Positions 24,669 to 34,149 of a DNA stretch of 64,000 nt are shown here, piece after piece. This DNA is from Paracoccus albus (lineage in GTDB: Bacteria > Pseudomonadota > Alphaproteobacteria > Rhodobacterales > Rhodobacteraceae). The translations under genes and the position numbers were made by a program. The notes beneath the pieces were generated by a model that ran no database searches, was not told the origin of the DNA, and was given only the letters and a program-made list of their open reading frames with translations. Location: contig NZ_CP115776.1 of assembly GCF_027913035.1 (NCBI RefSeq), positions 124,001 through 188,000 on the forward strand, written 5' to 3'. Within the stretch, counting starts at the first letter, position 1; every line of letters starts with the position of its first letter.

Positions 24669-25795
24669 GCTGTTCCCCCGAATTTGGCAAGTGCGTCAAG
24701 AATCCGCTGCGTCGCTTTGCCGTCACCATAAGGATTGTGGGCAAAGCTCATCTGCTGATAGGCGGTTTCATCGGTCAGCAGGCGCGAGGCCCAATCGAAA
24801 ATGCGTTTCGTATCCGTGCCGACAAGCTGCACCGTTCCAGCCTCAAGCGCCTCAGGACGTTCCGTGGTATCACGCATGACCAAAACCGGTTTCCCCAGCG
24901 ACGGTGCCTCTTCCTGAATCCCGCCCGAATCGGTGATGATGATCGTCGCGCGGTTCATCAGCCACACGAAGGGCAGATAGTCCTGTGGCTCAATCAGGTG
25001 AATATTGTCATGTTTACCCAGAAGCCGCGTCACGGGTTCGCGGACATTCGGATTCATGTGCATCGGATAGACGATATCGACCTCTGGAAACCGTTCGGCA
25101 AGCTGGGCAATCGCGGTGCAAATCCGCTCGAAACCGCCGCCAAAGCTTTCACGGCGATGGCCGGTCACCAGAACCATCCGGCGATCCTCAGTCAGGAAAT
25201 CAAACCGCGCCGCGATCTCCTCCGCCATTCCCGTTTCGTTTTTGAAACGCCCGACCACATCCATCAGCGCATCAATGACGGTATTGCCGGTCACGATGAT
25301 CCGTTCCTCTGGCCCGCCCTCGCGCAGCAGGGCTTGGCGCGACGTATCCGTCGGCGCGAAATGCAATGTTGCCAGCGAGCCTGTCAGCCTTCGGTTCCCC
25401 TCCTCGGGCCAGGGCGAATAGATATTGCCGGTCCGCAAACCTGCCTCGACATGACCGACCGGGATGCGGGCATAGTAAGACGCGACGGTCGCTGAAAACG
25501 TCGTCGCCGTATCGCCGTGAACCAGCACGATGTCCGGGCGCTCCTTTTCCAGCACCGGCTTCAGACCGCTTAGGATGGTCGAGGTCACATCGTAGAGATC
25601 CTGCCCGCTTTTCATGATGTTCAGGTCGTGATCCGGCTTCAGCCCGAACAGCGTCGTGACCTGATCCAGCATCTCGCGATGCTGGCCCGTTACGCAGACA
25701 ACCCCTGTGAAGCGGGCATCCGCATCAATCGCCTTTGCAAGAGGGGCCATCTTGATTGCTTCGGGCCGGGTCCCGAATACGGTCATGACTTTCAT
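24665..25795 (-). CDS. wecB: UDP-N-acetylglucosamine 2-epimerase (non-hydrolysing)
   Basis: Cytoplasmic epimerase of 376 residues converting UDP-GlcNAc to UDP-ManNAc. [12 protein letters not shown] at the N-terminus, [29 protein letters not shown] and [22 protein letters not shown] are characteristic of the family. Full family length. The ATG overlaps the end of the upstream glycosyltransferase gene by four bases, and the stop overlaps wecC, so the genes are translationally coupled. Confidence 0.94.
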
Positions 25796-27351
25796 ATTTC
25801 GGCACCATTGATTGCGGCGGAAGAAGGCATTGTCTCTGACGCTAATGTCTGAAGGTTGATTGCGTCTGCACTGGCGATGTGGATCAGCGCGTTGAGCGTG
25901 GCGTCCTCATCGGTCATGTCGACGCAAAGCGAGCCGGGCGGAAGCTTCGTCCGCGAAAGGGCGCTGCCCGTTTCCGCAAAGGCCAGAACTGGACGCCCCG
26001 CCGAGCGGTAATCGGCGAGCTTCGAGGGCAGGTAGGGGTTGGTTCGAAATGCAGCATCAGTGGCTGTATCGTTGATGAACAGCCAATCCATGGCTCGCAT
26101 ATATGACAGCGCATCAAGGTAATCGAGCGCGGCAGAGGCGATCACAAACCTGTCGATACCAAGATCAGCGCATTGCCGCCGAAATTCACGGGGAACGTTG
26201 CCAAAAACCAGTAACCGCAGCTTTGCCTTCAGATGGTCAGGCAGCCGGGCGAAGGCGTTCAGCAAAGGTGTCAGATCCCGTCGCGGGTTCAGGTTTCCGA
26301 AATAGCCGATCCAGATATCACCACGCGAGGCTTTCGGACAGGGCATCTGTGAAAGGATGGTCGGACCGGGGACCGGATGTTCCTCGATTTCTGAAATGCT
26401 GCTTATCCGTGCGCGGACATTTTCAGGAAGGTCTGGCTGCGAACCCATCAGATCGCGCTGTTCTTCATTGTTGAAAACAATGCGGTCAGCAAGACAGAAG
26501 GGAAGATACTCCGCCCAGAACATCAGCGATTGTCCATCCGGAACGTCGAAACCACGCGCACGAATGGCGGCGGCAATCCGGCTGTTTTCCAGCCACGCGT
26601 CATCAACAAGGGCGTTGCTGTCGTCGCCTGTCAGGCTTTGGCGGCAAGGATCAGAGAACTCCGCCGTCCAACTATCGCCAAACCCCGCGACAAATGCAGC
26701 GGCGGCGGCGAAATGCGACTGAGCCCACATCGACCTGGAATAGATTTCGTCATAGCGTTGCGCCCCAAATTCGTCAGATTGCAGCGCCTGAACAGTGGCG
26801 TCGGCGAAATCAGTGAATGCGGCCGCTCTGGCCGGATAGTTTTCCGCCTCAAGGACAATATGTTGTCCGATCCGCGCCGAAATCGCCCCATAGAGCCCAC
26901 CGTCCAGCGGTGCCACGCCGCTCATATCGTTGGAAATCACATCGACGCTGTCGCCGCTTTTCTCAACGCGCCGCGCCATGACATTTCCCGATGCATTCGC
27001 AAAGGGGGGAAAAGCGAAGGCGATGACAAGGCGTGCGGATGGGCCTGACAGTTCCGGCAACTCTGCACCGGCTTTGCTCAGCATTTTTCTGATCTTGTCA
27101 TGCCATGCAGTGCATATCCCCAAACCGGTCCAGCGAAAGCGGGGTATCTGCCGGTATATCCGCTCGGCCTCCGAAATGTTCCCAAGGCTCGCTTCCAGCT
27201 CGACCGCCTCGCGCAAGCGCTCAAGCGAGGGCCGTATGTCTTGCGCGCGCGATAGCAGTGCGCGCCGCGTCTGAGCCGGAAGACAATCGGCCAGTTGCCG
27301 CTGCGCACGACACAAGCCATTTGCCAGAAATTCAATCTCTAGTTGTTTCAT
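25792..27351 (-). CDS. Putative GT-B glycosyltransferase of the polysaccharide operon
   Basis: Protein of 519 residues, largely lacking the textbook motifs but with a GT-B-like C-terminal half: [23 protein letters not shown] followed by [10 protein letters not shown] and [22 protein letters not shown], the latter matching the nucleotide-sugar site of GT4-like enzymes. The N-terminal about 100 residues are helical, as in the other glycosyltransferase of this operon. It lies seven bases after the coiled-coil gene and overlaps wecB. It probably builds the same surface glycan. Sugar specificity unknown. Confidence 0.7.
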
Positions 27352-27802: not shown

Positions 27803-28436
27803 TCGATGTTCCTGACTGATCAGTAACTCTCTCTATGGTTGTATATCCTTAGGTAAAATTTGTGAAGGAGAAATTCGTCCTTAGGTTGTGCTTTGGTGCG
27901 CGTGCTCACCTGGCTGCAAGGAGGTTCTCGTCTGTAAGCCGCGGATCGTCCCGTTTAAAACGCTGAATTTAACCTGGCTGTCTGATGCCAAGCTTTGGCC
28001 GTACGTTCCTGCAGGACGAGTGGTCGATGGTACAGGTTCGTCACGTTATGGCCGCGACCTCGCGCTGCGTCAGTGTGGCAATACAGCAATTGAAACCCTG
28101 CCGGCAGGAGCGGAGCTGGAATTCGGGTATCTCTCCAAAGACGGTCACGAGGTAGCGAAAGCGGCAGACAGTCGATGATCTGAGGACTTGGCACAAGAAG
28201 CCCTGCTCGTCAGTTGTTACCGGAGATAGAGGAGGCAATGATCGTCGCCTTCGACACCGGCAAATGCGGCCGGACGATTTGTTTAAGGCCCGCAGCCATC
28301 GATCCCAAGCCTGACGCGTTCAGGGCCGCATCGATTCCTGCAACCTCATGGCGTTTTCCGGCATCCTGATGTGAAGGACGGCGAGAAAATACGGCGGATG
28401 CTGTTCAACTGCCATCGCTAGGCAGGCAATTGACGC
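27803..28436. other. 634-base interval without a recognisable gene
   Basis: This stretch separates the polysaccharide operon from the SARP-like regulator. It contains only short open frames on both strands (for example 27888-28178 plus and 28041-28238 minus) that match no family I know and lack ribosome sites. The texture (several interrupted frames with coding-like composition) suggests decayed genes or a mobile-element relic, but no transposase motif or terminal repeats could be identified. The palindrome ACTGATCAGT at 27815-27824 probably belongs to the promoter of the coiled-coil gene. Confidence 0.4.
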
Positions 28437-30023
28437 TCAGTCTCGATCCAGATCCAGCAGGCCGTTTCTAGCTGCGTCAAGATAACCGATATCGCGCAGT
28501 GTGTCCGCGGGGTAGCGGCGGTCGAAAAGAAACCGCTCGATCGTGAAGTCGGGCTCAATCAATGCCAGCTTTCCGGCAGAGGCCATTGCGGCCTTTATAT
28601 CGCCGTTGCAAGCCTGCAGCGCCAGCAACTGGCGCAATGGGGCACGGTAATTGACGTTGCCCTGTGCCGCCCGTTCGGCTGCTTCCATAGCTTCTTGAGG
28701 GCGACGCATGGAAAGGCAAAGAATGGCATGTTGCAGGCTGCACATCGCCTCAAATTTTGAATAGGCGGAGATCTGGCTGGCGTGGCGTGACATTTCCCAC
28801 GCTGTCTTCGCGTCGCCCTGCGTGGCACGGGCCTTTGACATGGCCAGAAGAGCAAAAAGATTATGCGGATCCTCCCGCAGAACCCGGACCGCCCTTTGCG
28901 CCGCCCCGCCGATATCACCCAGAAGCCCGCCCCGCACGCTGGCCGACAGGGCAAGCACCATCGGCTCATCGGGGGACAGGCCTTCGGCCCGGTTCAGCAG
29001 GTCGGTCATTTCAGCGCGCAGATCGTTCGTGTCAGGTTGCACCTCCTCCAGTGCCATAGACATCAGCACCCATGCGCCAAAAGCCAGGAAAAGCCCGGAT
29101 TGCAGCTGACTATATGCCGATCCAAGCCCGTCGAAAGCGCGGCTCATGGCAGTGGCATCGAAGCTGAGCGTATCGCGCAGCGCTGATTGGACATAACGGC
29201 TGCGCTGAGCGATGGTCGAATCTGGCCGGGAATGTTGCGGCAGGCGCTCCAGTGCCGCATCGGCCACACCCCAGCAGAAACGACCAAGCGCTTGCTCATC
29301 CGCCAAAAATCCGTGAAGGTCGCTGACGAAACAATGGTCGCTATGGACCAGATCGTCAGTGGCTGGGTCGATAACCTGCGCGAGGATCATCGCGCTTTTG
29401 TCCCCCTGATCGACCGAGGTGCGGATGATAAGGTCCGGGTTTTCCTGACGGAGCGTCCGCCTGGCACAGGCGATGAAGCCGCTGACCGTCTTGCCGATCT
29501 GATCGTCCACCATCTGCGCCAGCGGGTTGACGCCCTGCGCCGTTCTCCATGGCATTCCGCATTGGATAAGCACCACGTGGCCTGGATCGCTGTCTGTCTT
29601 GACGCGGTCGGCATAGCTGACGCGCTTATGGATAAGCCAGTCGTTGAATTCCGGGTCAAGGATATCCAGCCCTTCCAGAAACTCTCCCTCTGCCGAGTGG
29701 TCGGCAAGGTCGGTTTGCACGGCCGAGGCATCAAGCCAGACATGTTTGCGGTCGCTGCCCAGAACATGGGCAGCGGGGCCAAAGCAGCGCCGGATTTCCA
29801 GCAGGGCGGATCGCAGACTGCCCTGCGCCTGCCGCGGGGCGCGATCGCTCCACAATTTGTCCTCTAGCCAGCGGCGCCCGCGCCGCATCGACGGGGTTTC
29901 TGCCAGCAGTGCCAGAAGACCGATTGACTTTCGGCCAAGCGGCGTAATGTCCGCACCATTCGAATCGGTCACGAGAAATGATCCCCGCAATCGGATTTTA
30001 AGGCGGCCATTAGAATTTGGCAT
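28437..30023 (-). CDS. SARP-like transcriptional regulator with helical repeat C-terminus
   Basis: Protein of 528 residues. The first about 100 residues look like the OmpR-type winged helix of SARP/AfsR-like activators: LRGSFLVTDSNGADITPLGRKSIGLLALLA, then RRWLEDKLWSDRAPRQAQGSLRSALLEIRR, the classic segment before the recognition helix. A middle region (about 150-290) has a VADAALERL-type pattern reminiscent of adenylate-cyclase-associated regulators, and the C-terminal 230 residues carry helical TPR-like repeats. There is no NB-ARC ATPase. It is divergent, across 136 bases, from the haloperoxidase-fold gene and likely controls that cluster. SARP proteins typically activate nearby operons; the signal here is unknown. 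Confidence 0.75.
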   Translation of the reverse strand: MPNSNGRLKIRLRGSFLVTDSNGADITPLGRKSIGLLALLAETPSMRRGRRWLEDKLWSDRAPRQAQGSLRSALLEIRRCFGPAAHVLGSDRKHVWLDASAVQTDLADHSAEGEFLEGLDILDPEFNDWLIHKRVSYADRVKTDSDPGHVVLIQCGMPWRTAQGVNPLAQMVDDQIGKTVSGFIACARRTLRQENPDLIIRTSVDQGDKSAMILAQVIDPATDDLVHSDHCFVSDLHGFLADEQALGRFCWGVADAALERLPQHSRPDSTIAQRSRYVQSALRDTLSFDATAMSRAFDGLGSAYSQLQSGLFLAFGAWVLMSMALEEVQPDTNDLRAEMTDLLNRAEGLSPDEPMVLALSASVRGGLLGDIGGAAQRAVRVLREDPHNLFALLAMSKARATQGDAKTAWEMSRHASQISAYSKFEAMCSLQHAILCLSMRRPQEAMEAAERAAQGNVNYRAPLRQLLALQACNGDIKAAMASAGKLALIEPDFTIERFLFDRRYPADTLRDIGYLDAARNGLLDLDRD

Positions 30024-30159
30024 GAATCGACAAATCCCGCGAACGTAGGAAGCGTCCGAGCGTTAAACCAGCGTCAAAAAGCCGGACCTTCCGGATTGAT
30101 AATTGACCCATCTTATCTGTGTTGCAAAAATCCATCAACTAATTGCATCGGAGATTGTG

Positions 30160-31368
30160 ATGGCCGGATTAGGCATGTTGGGTCCCAGCAACGGAAAAAA
30201 CGGGAAAAATGGCAAGAACGGAAAAAACGGAAAAAATGGCAAGGATGGAGATGACGGTGTGTTTCACGCCGGTGGTCCTTCCGATACCGTTCTGAGTTAT
30301 GCGCTTCTAAGCTCGCATCAAGGCATTACGCCGGTTTGGGACACTGCGGGTCTACGCCCAGCTTCGGCGGCCGGCAACGAAGTGGGACCGGAAGATTCAT
30401 CCGATTTCAGGAACTTCGTCCATCTGGAGCCGCTTTATCGCGAACATCTTGTCGACTATCGCCTGCTATCGCTGTTTAAAACGCTTTCGCTTGAACCGGG
30501 CGAGGATATTTCTCTTTTTACGCGCCGAAAGCGCACGGGTCCAAGGCGAATGCGCAAGCCGGACCCTTTGTTTCGTTTGCCGCTATTCAACATGGATCGC
30601 GCCACACTTGAAAAGCAGGTAGCAATGATCAAGACGGCATCATTGCTGCGAGAAGAGCGATTAGAGGAAATCGTCGTTCAGCAGACCGATATCATATCGT
30701 TTTTCGGAATGATCAATTATCTGGATGCTGATTCGACGCCATATACTGTGATGCTGCTCTACGCGCTTTTGCGTTTGGGGACCACATTGGAAACGCCCAT
30801 GAAGCTTTTTGCCAATGCGCCACGGCCCATCGCCGTTTCGGCCTTTGTGCAGCCGATGATCCAGACTCCGACCCATGCCAGCTATCCTAGCGGCCATGCG
30901 GTCGAGGCTTATATGATTGCGACTGTGCTCTATGCGCTCAGCGGTGCGCAGCCAATCGGGATCATGCAAAGCGGGCCATCGAAGTCGTTCGATGTGAGCA
31001 CCGCGTTCAGCGATCCGGGTGCACCGTTGATGCGGCTTGCGGCGCGGATCGCGGAGAATCGCACTGTCGCGGGCGTGCATTATCCTATTGATAACTTCGC
31101 TGGCGCGGGGCTTGGGCTGGCGATTGGTGAATATCTTGTCAATGCGCTCGCAGGTGGCAAAAAGACGGGCTCCTATCGTATCACGCCGCCGGATCTGGCC
31201 GATACATTTTTCGAGTTTGAAACGGTTACAATAGGGGATGCAACCAATCCCGGCGCAATTGAAAAGACTGGTAAGCTGAATGTCGATCCAGATCGTACCG
31301 ATCCCCTGCTGCGTCAGATCTGGCGCAGAGCGCGGCGCGAGATGATCACGGTTGCACCTGCCTCCTGA
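30160..31368 (+). CDS. PAP2 / vanadium-dependent haloperoxidase-fold protein with collagen-like N-terminus
   Basis: Protein of 402 residues with all three PAP2-superfamily motifs: K215-x6-R222-P, PSGH at 243-246, and R301-x5-H307-x3-D311. These residues bind phosphate in acid phosphatases and vanadate in haloperoxidases. The length and the wide spacing resemble bacterial vanadium haloperoxidase-like proteins more than small PAP2 lipid phosphatases. Residues 12-33 are a G-x-y tract (GKN five times, then GKD, GDD). There is no signal peptide or clear membrane helix. Start at 30160 is supported by GGAG six bases upstream; an in-frame GTG lies one codon earlier. Its stop codon abuts the stop of the convergent subtilase gene. 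Chemistry (phosphatase or halogenation) cannot be told from sequence. Confidence 0.78.
   Translation: MAGLGMLGPSNGKNGKNGKNGKNGKNGKDGDDGVFHAGGPSDTVLSYALLSSHQGITPVWDTAGLRPASAAGNEVGPEDSSDFRNFVHLEPLYREHLVDYRLLSLFKTLSLEPGEDISLFTRRKRTGPRRMRKPDPLFRLPLFNMDRATLEKQVAMIKTASLLREERLEEIVVQQTDIISFFGMINYLDADSTPYTVMLLYALLRLGTTLETPMKLFANAPRPIAVSAFVQPMIQTPTHASYPSGHAVEAYMIATVLYALSGAQPIGIMQSGPSKSFDVSTAFSDPGAPLMRLAARIAENRTVAGVHYPIDNFAGAGLGLAIGEYLVNALAGGKKTGSYRITPPDLADTFFEFETVTIGDATNPGAIEKTGKLNVDPDRTDPLLRQIWRRARREMITVAPAS
30193..30255 (+). repeat. Nine-base coding tandem repeat encoding G-x-y triplets
   Basis: Seven consecutive nine-base units of the form GGN-AAR-AAY (the last two diverged to GGC-AAG-GAT and GGA-GAT-GAC) encode GKN x5, GKD and GDD in the N-terminus of the haloperoxidase-fold protein. 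Codon variation between units (GGA/GGG/GGC, AAC/AAT) shows the repeat is maintained at protein level and is not a very fresh slippage product. Confidence 0.9.
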
Positions 31369-33384
31369 TCACAGCGATTCAGTAAGCCGTCGCGATAGGA
31401 TTGCCGCGGCTGCACTGGTCCCCGACAGGCGAGTGCGGCTGCCGCTATAGGTTCCTGAGGCGTCAAGACCAGCGAGCGCGATGGTATCGACCTGCGCGGT
31501 TGCTGACGGGTCGTCGATTGCCGCCCATTCCGCACCTTCGCCAGAGTAGTCAGCCCTGATCTCAGCACCGTAAAAGCGCAGGTCCGCGCCTGCGGTATGA
31601 ATGCGCCGCGAAGCCGGATCACTACCCAGTTGTGCCGTGGTATAGCTGCTGTTTGTGCCATGATTGGTCAGCGGGGCTGTGACATCGCGGATCAATACAT
31701 CATCCTGGATATGCGCAACAATGGTGCCGTCGAAGTAGGACTGTCGACCGCCGGTAACAAAGCCCGGTGCGCTGTCGCCACGCTGGATCTGCAAAACCAG
31801 ATCCAGCGGCTGATCGCTGGGGTTTTGGAACTGCAGTTTCCATGCCCCGGAAGGCGCAGAGGCCAGCGGCGCGCGCGGATCGTGCGGCGTTGCATATGGA
31901 AGATGCCCCGTGGGCGCGATTGCCAACATCAGATAGCCGGGCTGCACGGGGCGATCAGGTGGCGTGCGAACAGGAACATGATAAAGCCTGCATGGTGTCG
32001 TATCATCGCCGCCGGTCAGTGGTGGCAGAGCCTCATTGGGGGGTGCCGTTCCGTCAAGCCCCGCAGCAGCGTTGGGGGCATTGAGGGTAATGCGCAGGCC
32101 ATCGGGTGGCGCGGCCAGCCGGCTGAGCCCGTCCTGCGTCTTCACCGCGCGAATTTCCATGAAAGTCGGGAATGGGTTGTCAGGTGGCGCGATCCAATGC
32201 GGGGCAGCCACCGTATCGCCGGGCGGAACGCAAAGCCTCGCCACCTGCCGCCGATTTCGGCTGTTGCCAAAGGCATAGACGACATGGACCGTCTGACCAT
32301 ATTGCTCTGCCAGAAGGATCTCGCGGCGAATTTGCTCTTCCAGAAACTTGCTGCCATCCTTCGGGCCGGCAAGCGTTCCATAGCTGATATTCACCACCAG
32401 CGGGCTGCGAAGAGACAGCCTGCGGGCGCGGGCGCAAAGCCAGCGGAATCCTTGCACGATATAGCTTTCGCTTGTCGTGCCAGAGGTATCCATCGCCGCT
32501 TCGGGGGGCAACTGCACCGCAAGCAGTGGATCGCCGGAGCGATCCCCCCCAAAAGCCAGATCGGCGACCGAGCTGCCATGCCCGTCAATCGGCGGCGGTT
32601 CCCTGAAAGCAGCCACGGTGTGCAAGTCGGTGTTGATCTCGTGATAGATGCTGCGTTCGCTTTTGCGCGTATCTGTAATCAGGTCGTCGATGTCGCGGCC
32701 AGTCAACACGCGGCCGACATGGATGTGCACGCCCGGACCGAAAGTGTTTTCATGCAGTCTTTCGCGCGATTGCAGCCATATCGCGCTGAACCGTGTCTGA
32801 TCGGCGGTTTCACGAAAACGGCGGTTAAGAAAACCGATATCGTTGTCGATCAGCGCACCTATAGCCTGATCGGAGGCAAGGCGAATATTCTGTCCTTCGG
32901 GTGGTGGGTCGTCGATTGTCGTGACAAGTGCCGGCGCGCCAATATCAATGACATCGGCAAAGGCCAGTGTCTGCTCATGCTCTGCCCATGTCTCGGCCAC
33001 TGGACGATAGAAGAAAAATTCAAGCACAGGCTCGACCGGACCGCCTGAAGACATGGCCACGGCATAGTGGATAAGGGCAGTCATGACCTCTTCGGGGTCG
33101 AATTTGTGTGTATCGCCGTCAAGAAACTCCAACCCGCGCAGCTTTTGTAGCCGATATGCAATGCCCCCCTCTTGCTTGCGATGAAGGGCGCGCGGCTCAC
33201 CTTTTGGGGTAATCAAGTTCTCTCGTTGCAGAAAATCGAAAGCTTCTTCCTGAGTGAGCGGATCACGGATGCGGCCAAATACCGGCTCCATCATTAAACC
33301 TTCGGCATCTCCGGGTCGCAGCAGGGTTTTTTCCAACTCGCGCGCCCAGTGCAGGTAGCCGTCCCAGAAAAAAAATTCCGGCAT
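31369..33384 (-). CDS. Divergent S8 (subtilisin-like) serine peptidase without signal peptide
   Basis: Protein of 671 residues. The subtilase triad is recognisable: Asp180 in IGALIDNDIGF, His269 in DGHGSSVADLAFG and Ser657 in LSGTSAAAAI close to the C-terminus, with the oxyanion Asn374 in YAFGNS and VVNISYG ahead of it. The N-terminal about 175 residues form an unrecognised domain, and about 250 residues are inserted between Asn and Ser. No export signal is seen, so it should be intracellular. Start at 33384 (MPEFFFWDG) has GGGAG six bases upstream. It converges on the haloperoxidase-fold gene with no spacer. Ser and His are firm; the target is unknown. Confidence 0.8.
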   Translation of the reverse strand: MPEFFFWDGYLHWARELEKTLLRPGDAEGLMMEPVFGRIRDPLTQEEAFDFLQRENLITPKGEPRALHRKQEGGIAYRLQKLRGLEFLDGDTHKFDPEEVMTALIHYAVAMSSGGPVEPVLEFFFYRPVAETWAEHEQTLAFADVIDIGAPALVTTIDDPPPEGQNIRLASDQAIGALIDNDIGFLNRRFRETADQTRFSAIWLQSRERLHENTFGPGVHIHVGRVLTGRDIDDLITDTRKSERSIYHEINTDLHTVAAFREPPPIDGHGSSVADLAFGGDRSGDPLLAVQLPPEAAMDTSGTTSESYIVQGFRWLCARARRLSLRSPLVVNISYGTLAGPKDGSKFLEEQIRREILLAEQYGQTVHVVYAFGNSRNRRQVARLCVPPGDTVAAPHWIAPPDNPFPTFMEIRAVKTQDGLSRLAAPPDGLRITLNAPNAAAGLDGTAPPNEALPPLTGGDDTTPCRLYHVPVRTPPDRPVQPGYLMLAIAPTGHLPYATPHDPRAPLASAPSGAWKLQFQNPSDQPLDLVLQIQRGDSAPGFVTGGRQSYFDGTIVAHIQDDVLIRDVTAPLTNHGTNSSYTTAQLGSDPASRRIHTAGADLRFYGAEIRADYSGEGAEWAAIDDPSATAQVDTIALAGLDASGTYSGSRTRLSGTSAAAAILSRRLTESL

Positions 33385-33591
33385 TGCCATCTCCCGTGAT
33401 CCGCCCGCAACCATTCAGCCAATACGACTTGCTTCGGTCAAGCCCGTCAACCTGCGAAAGGCGCGTATAAGGGCGCTTTTGACGCTTTATTAACGGAATG
33501 TACTGGTCGGATTAACGCTGCTGTGACGCGATCCATTGAGAATGGGCGCACAGCATTTAACGATTATCCGTCTCAAACTGGAGCGATAAGC

Positions 33592-34149
33592 ATGCCAATT
33601 AAGTCAAAGTCCGGTTCCGCAGGTCTTGCTTCTTTGAACGAAGATGACCTGAATGTCCTGTTTGAGTTATTCAGGGACAGGCTAATCGCCGAAGGGCTGG
33701 TCAATGCAGCTGGCACTGACGCCGTACCTTCCGGCCAGCCGGTCTCATCCAAAGCCCCTGCGGTGCAATGCTGTCCAATTTGTGGCAGCGCGGACGCCGC
33801 GCCGGATTCGGATGACGACGCGCCGCCCGTCTGGTTCGTCGCAGAGGGGGGCTACAGCTCCCGGATCAAAACGATGCGTATATGGATCGAATTGCAAGAG
33901 GCGCTGATCGACTGGAAAGATCGCCACTGCGAAACGATGCCAGAAACGCGGCTTGATGAAATGGCGGCTTCAGCCGTTTGCGCGCGGATGGATGTGCTTG
34001 CGGCGGTGAATCTGTCTTTCTGGTTCCGGTGCCGTGGCGTCTATCTGCACTATAACGACATCGCTTCAGATGAAACGTTGCAGGATGTGGTCACGACGTT
34101 ACAGGTGATTCTGGAAGATCTTGGCCATATAATCGCCGAGGAACTCTGA
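33592..34149 (+). CDS. Hypothetical protein with a CPICG motif
   Basis: Protein of 185 residues that I do not recognise. After a low-complexity linker it has CCPICGSADA (about residues 61-70), half of a zinc-ribbon pattern, with no clear second CxxC; a GYSSRIKTMRIWIELQEALIDWKDR helix and a mostly helical C-terminus follow. GGAG lies eight bases before the ATG at 33592. It is divergent from the subtilase across about 207 bases. Its placement suggests it belongs with the SARP/haloperoxidase-fold/subtilase cluster, perhaps as substrate, adaptor or inhibitor of the peptidase. That is only context. Confidence 0.6.
   Translation: MPIKSKSGSAGLASLNEDDLNVLFELFRDRLIAEGLVNAAGTDAVPSGQPVSSKAPAVQCCPICGSADAAPDSDDDAPPVWFVAEGGYSSRIKTMRIWIELQEALIDWKDRHCETMPETRLDEMAASAVCARMDVLAAVNLSFWFRCRGVYLHYNDIASDETLQDVVTTLQVILEDLGHIIAEEL

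Follow-up and report, generated by a model that had tools for sequence, protein, structure and literature searches.

A conserved three-gene module of Paracoccus albus and other proteobacteria with a repeated peptide tail that covaries with its regulator

Introduction

Receptors of the RRNPPA family are TPR domain proteins, and the SARP regulator AfsR also contains TPR. The TPR of O-GlcNAc transferase binds the repeats of HCF-1 (about 26 residues each) and is tied to HCF-1 proteolysis, and the yeast alpha-factor precursor carries tandem, spaced pheromone copies that are secreted and processed by kexin. SARP operators consist of heptamers with four-base spacers and at least two monomers are needed, according to PMC5930380. 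In this study, we analysed 64,000 nucleotides of Paracoccus albus (assembly GCF_027913035.1, contig NZ_CP115776.1, positions 124,001 to 188,000 of the forward strand), referred to as “the window”, whose own numbering is used throughout. It contains a cluster (28437-34149) of genes for a SARP-type regulator, a PAP2/vanadium-haloperoxidase-fold enzyme, a subtilase (S8) and a small CPICG protein. We report that the first three form a conserved module, that the enzyme carries a short, tandemly repeated peptide (the “tail”), and that this peptide covaries with the predicted TPR groove of the regulator, a pattern that points to a control circuit coded in sequence and so far undescribed. No description of the module was found in the full text of open papers, most subscription journals and preprints being outside the scope of that search.

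Results

The regulator gene (528 amino acids; 28437-30023, minus strand; open reading frame and family profile) is divergent from the enzyme gene (open reading frame 30103-31368, likely gene 30160-31368, plus strand; Pfam PF01569). The stop-side end of the latter abuts that of the subtilase gene (31369-33414, minus strand; Pfam S8 and alignment) at 31368/31369, and the subtilase is in turn divergent from the CPICG gene (open reading frame 33523-34149, likelier 33592-34149 with 185 amino acids, plus strand). All four open reading frames, with their strands, divergence and spacerless convergence, were found as described in an earlier note that had been made from the sequence alone.

That note had supposed that the four genes might be an undescribed module with a dedicated regulator, and had proposed a co-occurrence check. 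The check was run, and the outcome that would have refuted the idea, an absence of co-occurrence beyond this strain, did not occur: SARP, PAP2 and S8 occur together widely and more often than by chance, which supports a module, and the CPICG gene alone fell out of the block, being an orphan. A scan by subtilase alignment with one genome per species yielded 70 loci, with a family PAP2 gene in the fetched stretch of 65 and a SARP gene in that of 64. The five stretches without PAP2 include three (L038, L060 and L072) that break off at the gene or no more than 1.7 kb from it, and two (L071 and L073) that do not. Among 341 genomes of the order, 111 of the 115 PAP2 places at E ≤ 1e-36 have a subtilase within 3 kb, the remaining four (L159-L162) having a more divergent subtilase; at least one PAP2-S8 pair is present in 94 of these genomes, 16 of which have two or three pairs.

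The 154 unique PAP2 loci examined further (window included) were all picked via S8 or PAP2 matches. A regulator of the SARP-TPR family is present at 153 of them, within 1.5 kb in 147 of the 154, and a subtilase was recognised by two profiles at 146. Among the eight loci without a profile subtilase, a Pfam subtilase lies beside the regulator in L165, L167 and L169, and the aligned neighbours in L164 and L168 bear the subtilase triad (by eye); L163 is decayed, having lost both the active-site Lys of PAP2 and an intact S8, and in L166 neither profile recognised a subtilase. In L178 (G147:C1:3128585-3137025), an HGGT-tailed PAP2, a BTAD/TPR regulator and a weakly C39-peptidase-like neighbour were observed, with no subtilase recognised. 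The gene order is REG< PAP2> S8< in 68 loci, REG> PAP2> S8> in 37, REG< PAP2> S8> in 32 and of other kinds in 8, so that the linkage outlives rearrangement. The regulator is tied less strictly: a listed PAP2 is found within 5 kb for 77 of the 85 strong SARP hits (E ≤ 1e-80). All of the other eight but G051 were inspected; G012 has a PAP2 with an NK tail, and the remaining six (L318-L323) are treated below. Strong members were rare among 289 sampled genomes of the class and 299 sampled genomes of the phylum, two of them (G640 and G840) lying outside the class. Twelve plasmid records were also obtained, and the three that were opened (Paraburkholderia phymatum STM815, Roseibium aggregatum and Paracoccus zhejiangensis) each carry the tail, of the (GGA)n type in P. 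phymatum, the subtilase and the regulator. SARP, PAP2 and subtilase are a conserved three-gene module.

The enzyme of the window most likely starts at ATG 30160 (402 amino acids), giving the N terminus MAGLGMLGPS(NGK)6DGDDG, in which the repeat tract occupies residues 11-28 (30190-30243, plus strand); nowhere else does the genome encode NGKNGKNGK. A perfect repeat of two to five residues is present in 150 of the 154 unique loci, window included: 129 triplets, 12 tetrapeptides, 8 dipeptides and one pentapeptide, with 4-19 copies and 83 distinct units once rotations are merged. The tail mostly follows a short start peptide, and is internal, roughly 60-150 residues in as read, in some divergent members. 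The tail-less loci are L126 and L132, which fall below the threshold with three copies each, L046, which has PSAH in place of PSGH and a split SARP, and the decayed L163. Imperfect tracts are found in L016, L036, L069 and L317; in L317 (P. zhejiangensis pPZ01), SGH units are mixed with a single SGQ and a single SGL, and a type VI secretion gene lies nearby.

In two wider samples, all 20 PAP2s accompanied by a regulator or S8 carry a tail (L185 and L215 repeat earlier loci), and none of the 33 for which about 3.4 kb gave no partner hit do. A set of 80 viral PAP2 loci, partly near-duplicates, likewise yielded no tail and no S8 hit. These 33 partnerless and 80 viral loci are the controls used, L159-L178, fetched as S8-less controls, mostly having S8. 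For 15 genomes, several copies were fetched, and within each of these genomes the units all differ, as chance would also give with so many units. Pfam collagen matches are weak or local (E 0.036 in the window, 2.9e-6 in L175).

The tail is maintained as a repeated peptide, as judged from codons and from unit turnover. Adjacent units use the identical codon in 970 of 3600 comparisons (0.269), compared with 0.372 in within-tract codon shuffles, none of 500 of which was as low; in the set of 65 tracts, identical amino acids at a distance of three residues in other parts of the three proteins share their codon in 0.39-0.43 of cases. At lags of 2 and 3 units, codon agreement is slightly higher than shuffled (0.419 and 0.408 vs 0.372), as larger duplications would give. 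All 6 pairs whose PAP2s are 90-100% identical share their unit, as do 0.84 of 19 pairs at 80-90%, 0.28 of 98 at 60-70% and about none below 40%. The closest pairs with different units mostly differ at one residue in every copy (SGL/GGL/GGF, GTH/GVH, SR/SK, NAR/NAQ, GGAD/GGAN and NAL/DAL; GVE/GAQ differ at two), and the GGAN tract retains one GGAD. Isolated copies that lie in phase past a three-residue break switch together with the tract, as in (NSQ)n-AAE-NSQ, (NHQ)n-STE-NHQ, (SHQ)n-SHE-SHQ, (NAL)7-GSN-NAL and (DAL)7-SGN-DAL, so that slippage alone is insufficient. Unit 3-mers are enriched in their own PAP2 outside the tract (88 vs 29.6 shuffled, 0 of 500), as such isolated copies would give, and not in their own S8 (72 vs 71.9) or SARP (24 vs 33.6).

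The profile of the regulator family matches TPR structures, namely O-GlcNAc transferase and consensus or designed TPRs, and its positions 6-82 weakly match the winged helix-turn-helix (wHTH) of the AfsR DNA-binding domain (8hvr, E 0.0024). The window regulator alone has no Pfam match over cut-off, including none to wHTH, BTAD or NB-ARC; a BTAD match of 36.2 bits is found in the regulator of the relative L178. Adenylate/guanylate-cyclase domains were seen in the regulators of L316, L165 and L173, and Roseibium aggregatum also has an adjoining Crp/Fnr gene; these cyclase-type regulators match NCBIfam TIGR04510 weakly (26.9-31.7 bits, cut-off 400). With a cyclase domain in some regulators, different outputs may be coupled to the TPR reader.

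In 107 triplet loci, identity at each unit position was compared with identity at each of 1281 columns from the alignments of the three proteins (regulator, subtilase and enzyme), with overall similarity regressed out. For unit residue 1, SARP columns 440 (r 0.426) and 335 (r 0.385) stand apart, the next reaching 0.198 and the standard deviation of all columns being 0.056. At column 335, Gly goes with Ile, Val or Leu in 45 of 50 loci, Asn with Thr or Ser in 26 of 27, and Ala with Ala in 6 of 8, both Ala exceptions (AGI and AGV) having Leu. The top column for residue 2 is SARP 406 (r 0.239), where Arg goes with Asp in 4 of 4 loci and Lys with Asp in 2 of 3, and where the charges are opposite in six and the same in none of seven loci. 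For residue 3, the leading columns are PAP2 68 (r 0.279), SARP 382 (0.270), SARP 414 (0.205) and PAP2 147 (0.202). At 382, 12 of the 13 loci with Glu have Arg (11) or Lys (1); Asp goes with Arg in 2 of 2, Lys with Asp in 4 of 6 and Arg with Glu or Asp in 7 of 13. Over the 34 loci with a charged third residue, column 382 is opposite in 25, the same in none and uncharged in 9, which none of 5000 shuffles equalled; opposite minus same charges amount to 25 at this column, 21 at the next SARP column, 18 at the best PAP2 column and 12 at the best S8 column. Loci outside the search set agree: a basic second residue goes with Asp at 406 in 11 of 11, compared with 1 of 45 others, and of the relatives with GGAD and GGAN units, which are 69% identical in PAP2, the former has Arg and the latter Ala at column 382.

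The covarying TPR region lies at approximately 28554-29066 (minus strand; covariation and TPR profile), and columns 335, 382, 406, 414 and 440 are residues 322, 369, 393, 401 and 427 of the window protein. The ligand-facing positions of a TPR are usually 2, 5, 9, 12 and 13. In the TPR register, which was assigned from sequence and fixed with the top covarying columns already known, columns 406 and 440, separated by 34, both fall on position 5, in adjacent repeats; 414 falls on position 13, 382 on position 15, and 335 lies within the less regular first TPR. The 25 ligand-type TPR columns exceed the other SARP columns in whole-unit covariation (mean r 0.063 vs -0.003, p 2e-6) and also exceed the S8 columns (p 2e-5). 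When columns were rechosen from loci less than 45% identical to the test locus (leave-clade-out), the mean percentile of the true unit was 0.769 with SARP, 0.622 with PAP2 and 0.59 with S8, compared with 0.579 for random SARP columns (range 0.531-0.635, every second locus). There may be a readable code, in which unit residue 1 would be read by columns 335 and 440, residue 2 by column 406 and residue 3 by columns 382 and 414. With two putative pockets for residue 1, one TPR array would span more than one unit, and this would explain the need for agreeing copies.

Several observations weigh against this reading, the timing of the register assignment among them. On a tree of S8 plus PAP2 (IQ-TREE, quick mode), the unit needs at least 57 changes, slightly overcounted as rotations were left unmerged, and the independent pairs (same to opposite) are few: 6:0 for Asn/Ser vs Thr/Ser at 335 (p 0.031) and, on average, 5.4:0 for Gly vs Ile/Leu/Val/Met at 335 (median p 0.0625). 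The charge tests provide 2.6:0, 2.2:0 and 1:0 independent pairs, each too few for significance alone, and Asn with non-Trp at 440 only 2.0:0.7; other independent pairs are 2.0:0 for Ala with Ala at 335 and 4.7:0 for Gly with Trp at 440. Of the 11 loci outside the search set that combine a basic second residue with Asp at 406, ten belong to one divergent S8 class, hence to few events. The window itself breaks the charge rule, its NGK unit standing with a neutral Gly at 382. For residue 3, the covariation of PAP2 columns 68 and 147 is about as strong as that of SARP 382 and 414; these enzyme columns could touch the tail or reflect clades. In the first version of the analysis, S8 column 549 reached r 0.328, compared with 0.466 for the best SARP column. 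Finally, in six SARP relatives (L318-L323), the stretch that was fetched contains no tailed PAP2. In L322 (6527-8779), the neighbour is a 751-aa protein with a weak PAP2-profile match (E 2e-8) that appears haloperoxidase-like by eye, and in L323 (6562-7551) it is a tail-less PAP2; from these neighbours, the regulator-enzyme pairing may predate the tail.

The window enzyme matches PF01569 with E 1.9e-10 and has the active-site residues K215, R222, PSGH (243-246), R301 and H307. Over the 154 loci, the Lys and the first Arg are conserved in 153, the Pro, H246, R301 and H307 in 154, the Ser in 150 and the Gly in 133, and the profile matches the structures of an acid phosphatase (7f17) and a bromoperoxidase (1qi9). 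With these residues kept, the enzyme is probably active, as a phosphatase or a vanadate-dependent peroxidase.

The subtilase, 681 amino acids as read, matches Pfam S8 just above cut-off (23.2 vs 21.8 bits), and ATG 33384 is its likely start since Met 11 is invariant. D190, H279, N384 and S667 are invariant in a 34-row alignment; in 137 sequences, His and Ser are present in 137, Asp in 135 and the oxyanion Asn in 136, and the catalytic residues were also recognised by eye in L164, L165 and L167-L169. The idea that a distinctive unit residue serves as P1 of the linked subtilase was dropped, the best S8 column for residue 1 having r 0.198 (0.328 in the first version); it is also countered by the S8 leave-clade-out prediction, hardly above random SARP columns (0.59 vs 0.579).

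Upstream of PAP2 lies box 1 (30060-30079, plus strand), with heptamers GCGTTAA/GCGTCAA 11 bp apart, and box 2 (33477-33496, minus strand; CCGTTAA/GCGTCAA) is directed at S8, both found by pattern search. The S8-CPICG intergenic region contains a further box (33512-33529, minus strand; GCGTCAC/GCGTTAA) found as a lag-11 pair. A sigma-70-like promoter, TTGACC-17-AAAAAT, follows box 1 (30103-30131, plus strand); it comes from a consensus scan only, which found 4 such sites in 29900-33650 vs 2.1 expected. The 20-bp pattern SCGTTAANNNNGCGTCAAAA, derived from the two boxes, occurs with at most one mismatch only at boxes 1 and 2 in the 3.76-Mb genome, and looser forms might mark other targets. CGTNA-N6-CGTNA pairs with 11-bp spacing are present upstream of 67 of 150 PAP2 genes (0 to 5 at other spacings from 7 to 15) and of 42 of 69 convergent S8 genes (0 to 3 at other spacings), and before both genes in 32 of the 69. 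By their 11-bp heptamer spacing, the boxes are putative SARP operators.

The CPICG gene faces the S8 promoter and its SARP boxes, and its start is probably ATG 33592 rather than GTG 33523, which lies inside a box. The protein database contains a single relative of its product, and none was found at E ≤ 0.01 in the stretches of the 70 S8 loci; it is an orphan, lineage-specific gene and at most a candidate member of the module. A small conserved protein (144-174 amino acids as read) takes its place in L016, L017, L019 and L020; two of these were scanned, without a Pfam match. On one side, the neighbours scanned encode an ABC permease with its binding protein, and a histidine phosphatase; on the other lies a 519-aa protein (25792-27351) without family assignment in the Pfam scan. 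Between the regulator and the next gene (27803-28436), the frames are short or overlapping, perhaps a decayed mobile element. The tRNA search found none, and the Rfam search gave no family at its gathering score. By eye, no export signal was evident in the module proteins (no signal-peptide program was used).

In approximately 14-15 of the 70 loci, a gyrB-type gene, DUF1194 and one unassigned family are common on the S8 side, a stable chromosomal position in part of the family. Of the 70 loci, 26 between L011 and L057 (for example L036:8237-9751) have a degenerate-PAP2-like protein of about 500 amino acids divergent from S8, which matches the PAP2 family profile in its C-terminal half (probability 87%, E 3.8e-6). 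L043 (JAFKDC010000019.1), titled Enemella evansiae, which we take from its name to be an actinobacterium, carries the typical alphaproteobacterial version and is perhaps a mislabelled or contaminated assembly.

Discussion

We consider it probable that the module is a self-contained circuit whose regulator reads a multivalent barcode borne by the very enzyme that it controls. The SARP-TPR protein would activate the PAP2 enzyme and the subtilase from the 11-bp-spaced heptamer boxes, and its concave TPR face would read the repeated peptide near the enzyme start, residue by residue. The tail would then be a multivalent ligand through which the enzyme informs or retains its own regulator, either several regulators sitting on one tail or one regulator binding several units, and barcodes that differ between lineages and between copies in one genome would keep the circuits apart. 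The sequences themselves show the tail, the conservation of its repeated form, the covariation with the predicted TPR groove and the putative boxes, and physical binding of the tail by the groove is, in our view, very probable. The direction of control and the role of the protease are what we infer from them. Binding of the tail might titrate the activator and so provide negative feedback, which we put forward tentatively, titration being likelier, we think, than co-activation; with equal reserve, we suggest that the subtilase, whose triad is intact, might reset the circuit by cutting the tail or the enzyme. The (NGK)6 tract, the boxes and the tail-to-groove match as the organising principle are absent from the earlier note.

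A released ligand is a rather unlikely explanation: the subtilase would cut the tail into oligopeptides that bind the TPR regulator within or between cells, in the manner of RRNPPA peptides or alpha-factor. A linked, intact protease, a TPR receptor with sequence-specific covariation and identical tandem copies of lineage-specific units are what it would lead one to expect, and RRNPPA propeptides may contain 1-4 copies according to PMC11343458. However, prediction of the unit from S8 columns is scarcely better than from random SARP columns (0.59 vs 0.579), unit length (2-5) and composition vary widely, the peptide is fused to the enzyme in the loci examined, and an export signal is not evident by eye. 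That the module is a Gram-negative counterpart of RRNPPA, the subtilase digesting the tail and the enzyme carrying 4-19 copies of its own signal, seems to us unlikely.

We doubt strongly that the set of regulator, enzyme and protease is the effector arm of an anti-phage or stress defence, a role the earlier note had also entertained. Its patchy spread (94 of 341 genomes, 16 with two or three pairs) would fit such a role, but the four proteins gave 0 PADLOC hits, the 80 viral PAP2 loci had no tail or S8, and the gyrB-side neighbours shared by approximately 14-15 of 70 loci indicate an often stable chromosomal locus. For the post-translational modification suggested in the same note, no evidence was found.

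It is very unlikely that the repeat forms a three-residue-per-turn helix or a collagen-like bundle for self-assembly of the enzyme, whose packing would demand perfection. Period 3 in 129 of 150 tracts, the many GXX units and the weak or local collagen matches are in keeping with such a structure; glycine-free units (NSQ, NHQ, AAQ, TAM, LQS) and periods of 2, 4 and 5 are not, and the strongest covariation sits in the regulator. A functionless microsatellite made by slippage, with covariation from shared descent, could yield 4-19 copies, the slightly higher codon agreement at lags of 2-3 units and few independent pairs, but is hardly credible when adjacent units avoid identical codons, isolated copies co-switch, 33 ordinary and 80 viral PAP2 loci lack a tail, and leave-clade-out prediction works.

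If the circuit reading is true, the module embodies a new protein-protein code, in which the unit sequence is nearly free and yet near-perfectly repeated and groove-matched to one regulator. With its more than 80 natural units, it would offer a ready set from which to learn how extended peptides are recognised by TPR proteins, and the code between unit and TPR could be used for orthogonal regulatory parts and circuits. It would also place proteobacterial vanadium-haloperoxidase-like enzymes and subtilases under a regulator with testable putative operators.

Among known systems, the vanadium haloperoxidases and acid phosphatases resemble the enzyme in conserved active-site residues and profile matches, and differ in lacking the repeat tail and the partner genes. 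The resemblance to O-GlcNAc transferase and HCF-1 lies in the match of the regulator profile to the TPR superhelix, the transferase being a eukaryotic and unrelated enzyme. With kexin and alpha-factor, the module has in common a subtilase and tandem identical peptides, which here appear cytosolic and are fused to an enzyme. Like the SARP regulators AfsR and PimR, the regulator has a weak similarity to the AfsR wHTH and putative operators of heptamers with 4-nt spacers, as PMC5930380 describes them; unlike them, the module is without an adjoining antibiotic cluster and a Pfam-recognised NB-ARC, and the boxes lie within the module itself. The RRNPPA systems (Rap, PlcR, AimR) are comparable in that, according to PMC11343458, receptors are specific for their own pheromone, the short peptide is encoded beside the receptor gene and a propeptide can contain several copies, as tandem units do here. 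The module regulator has a TPR array by profile and, from its covariation, a presumed peptide ligand. Its N terminus is however SARP-type and not an XRE helix-turn-helix or a Rap helical bundle, the peptide is carried on a PAP2 enzyme (150 of 154 loci) as 4-19 contiguous units of 2-5 residues instead of in a small secreted propeptide, and the module occurs in alpha- and betaproteobacteria, with no export signal evident by eye. Without the XRE or Rap N terminus and with its peptide on an enzyme, we do not file the module as RRNPPA, despite what would be a similar way of working.

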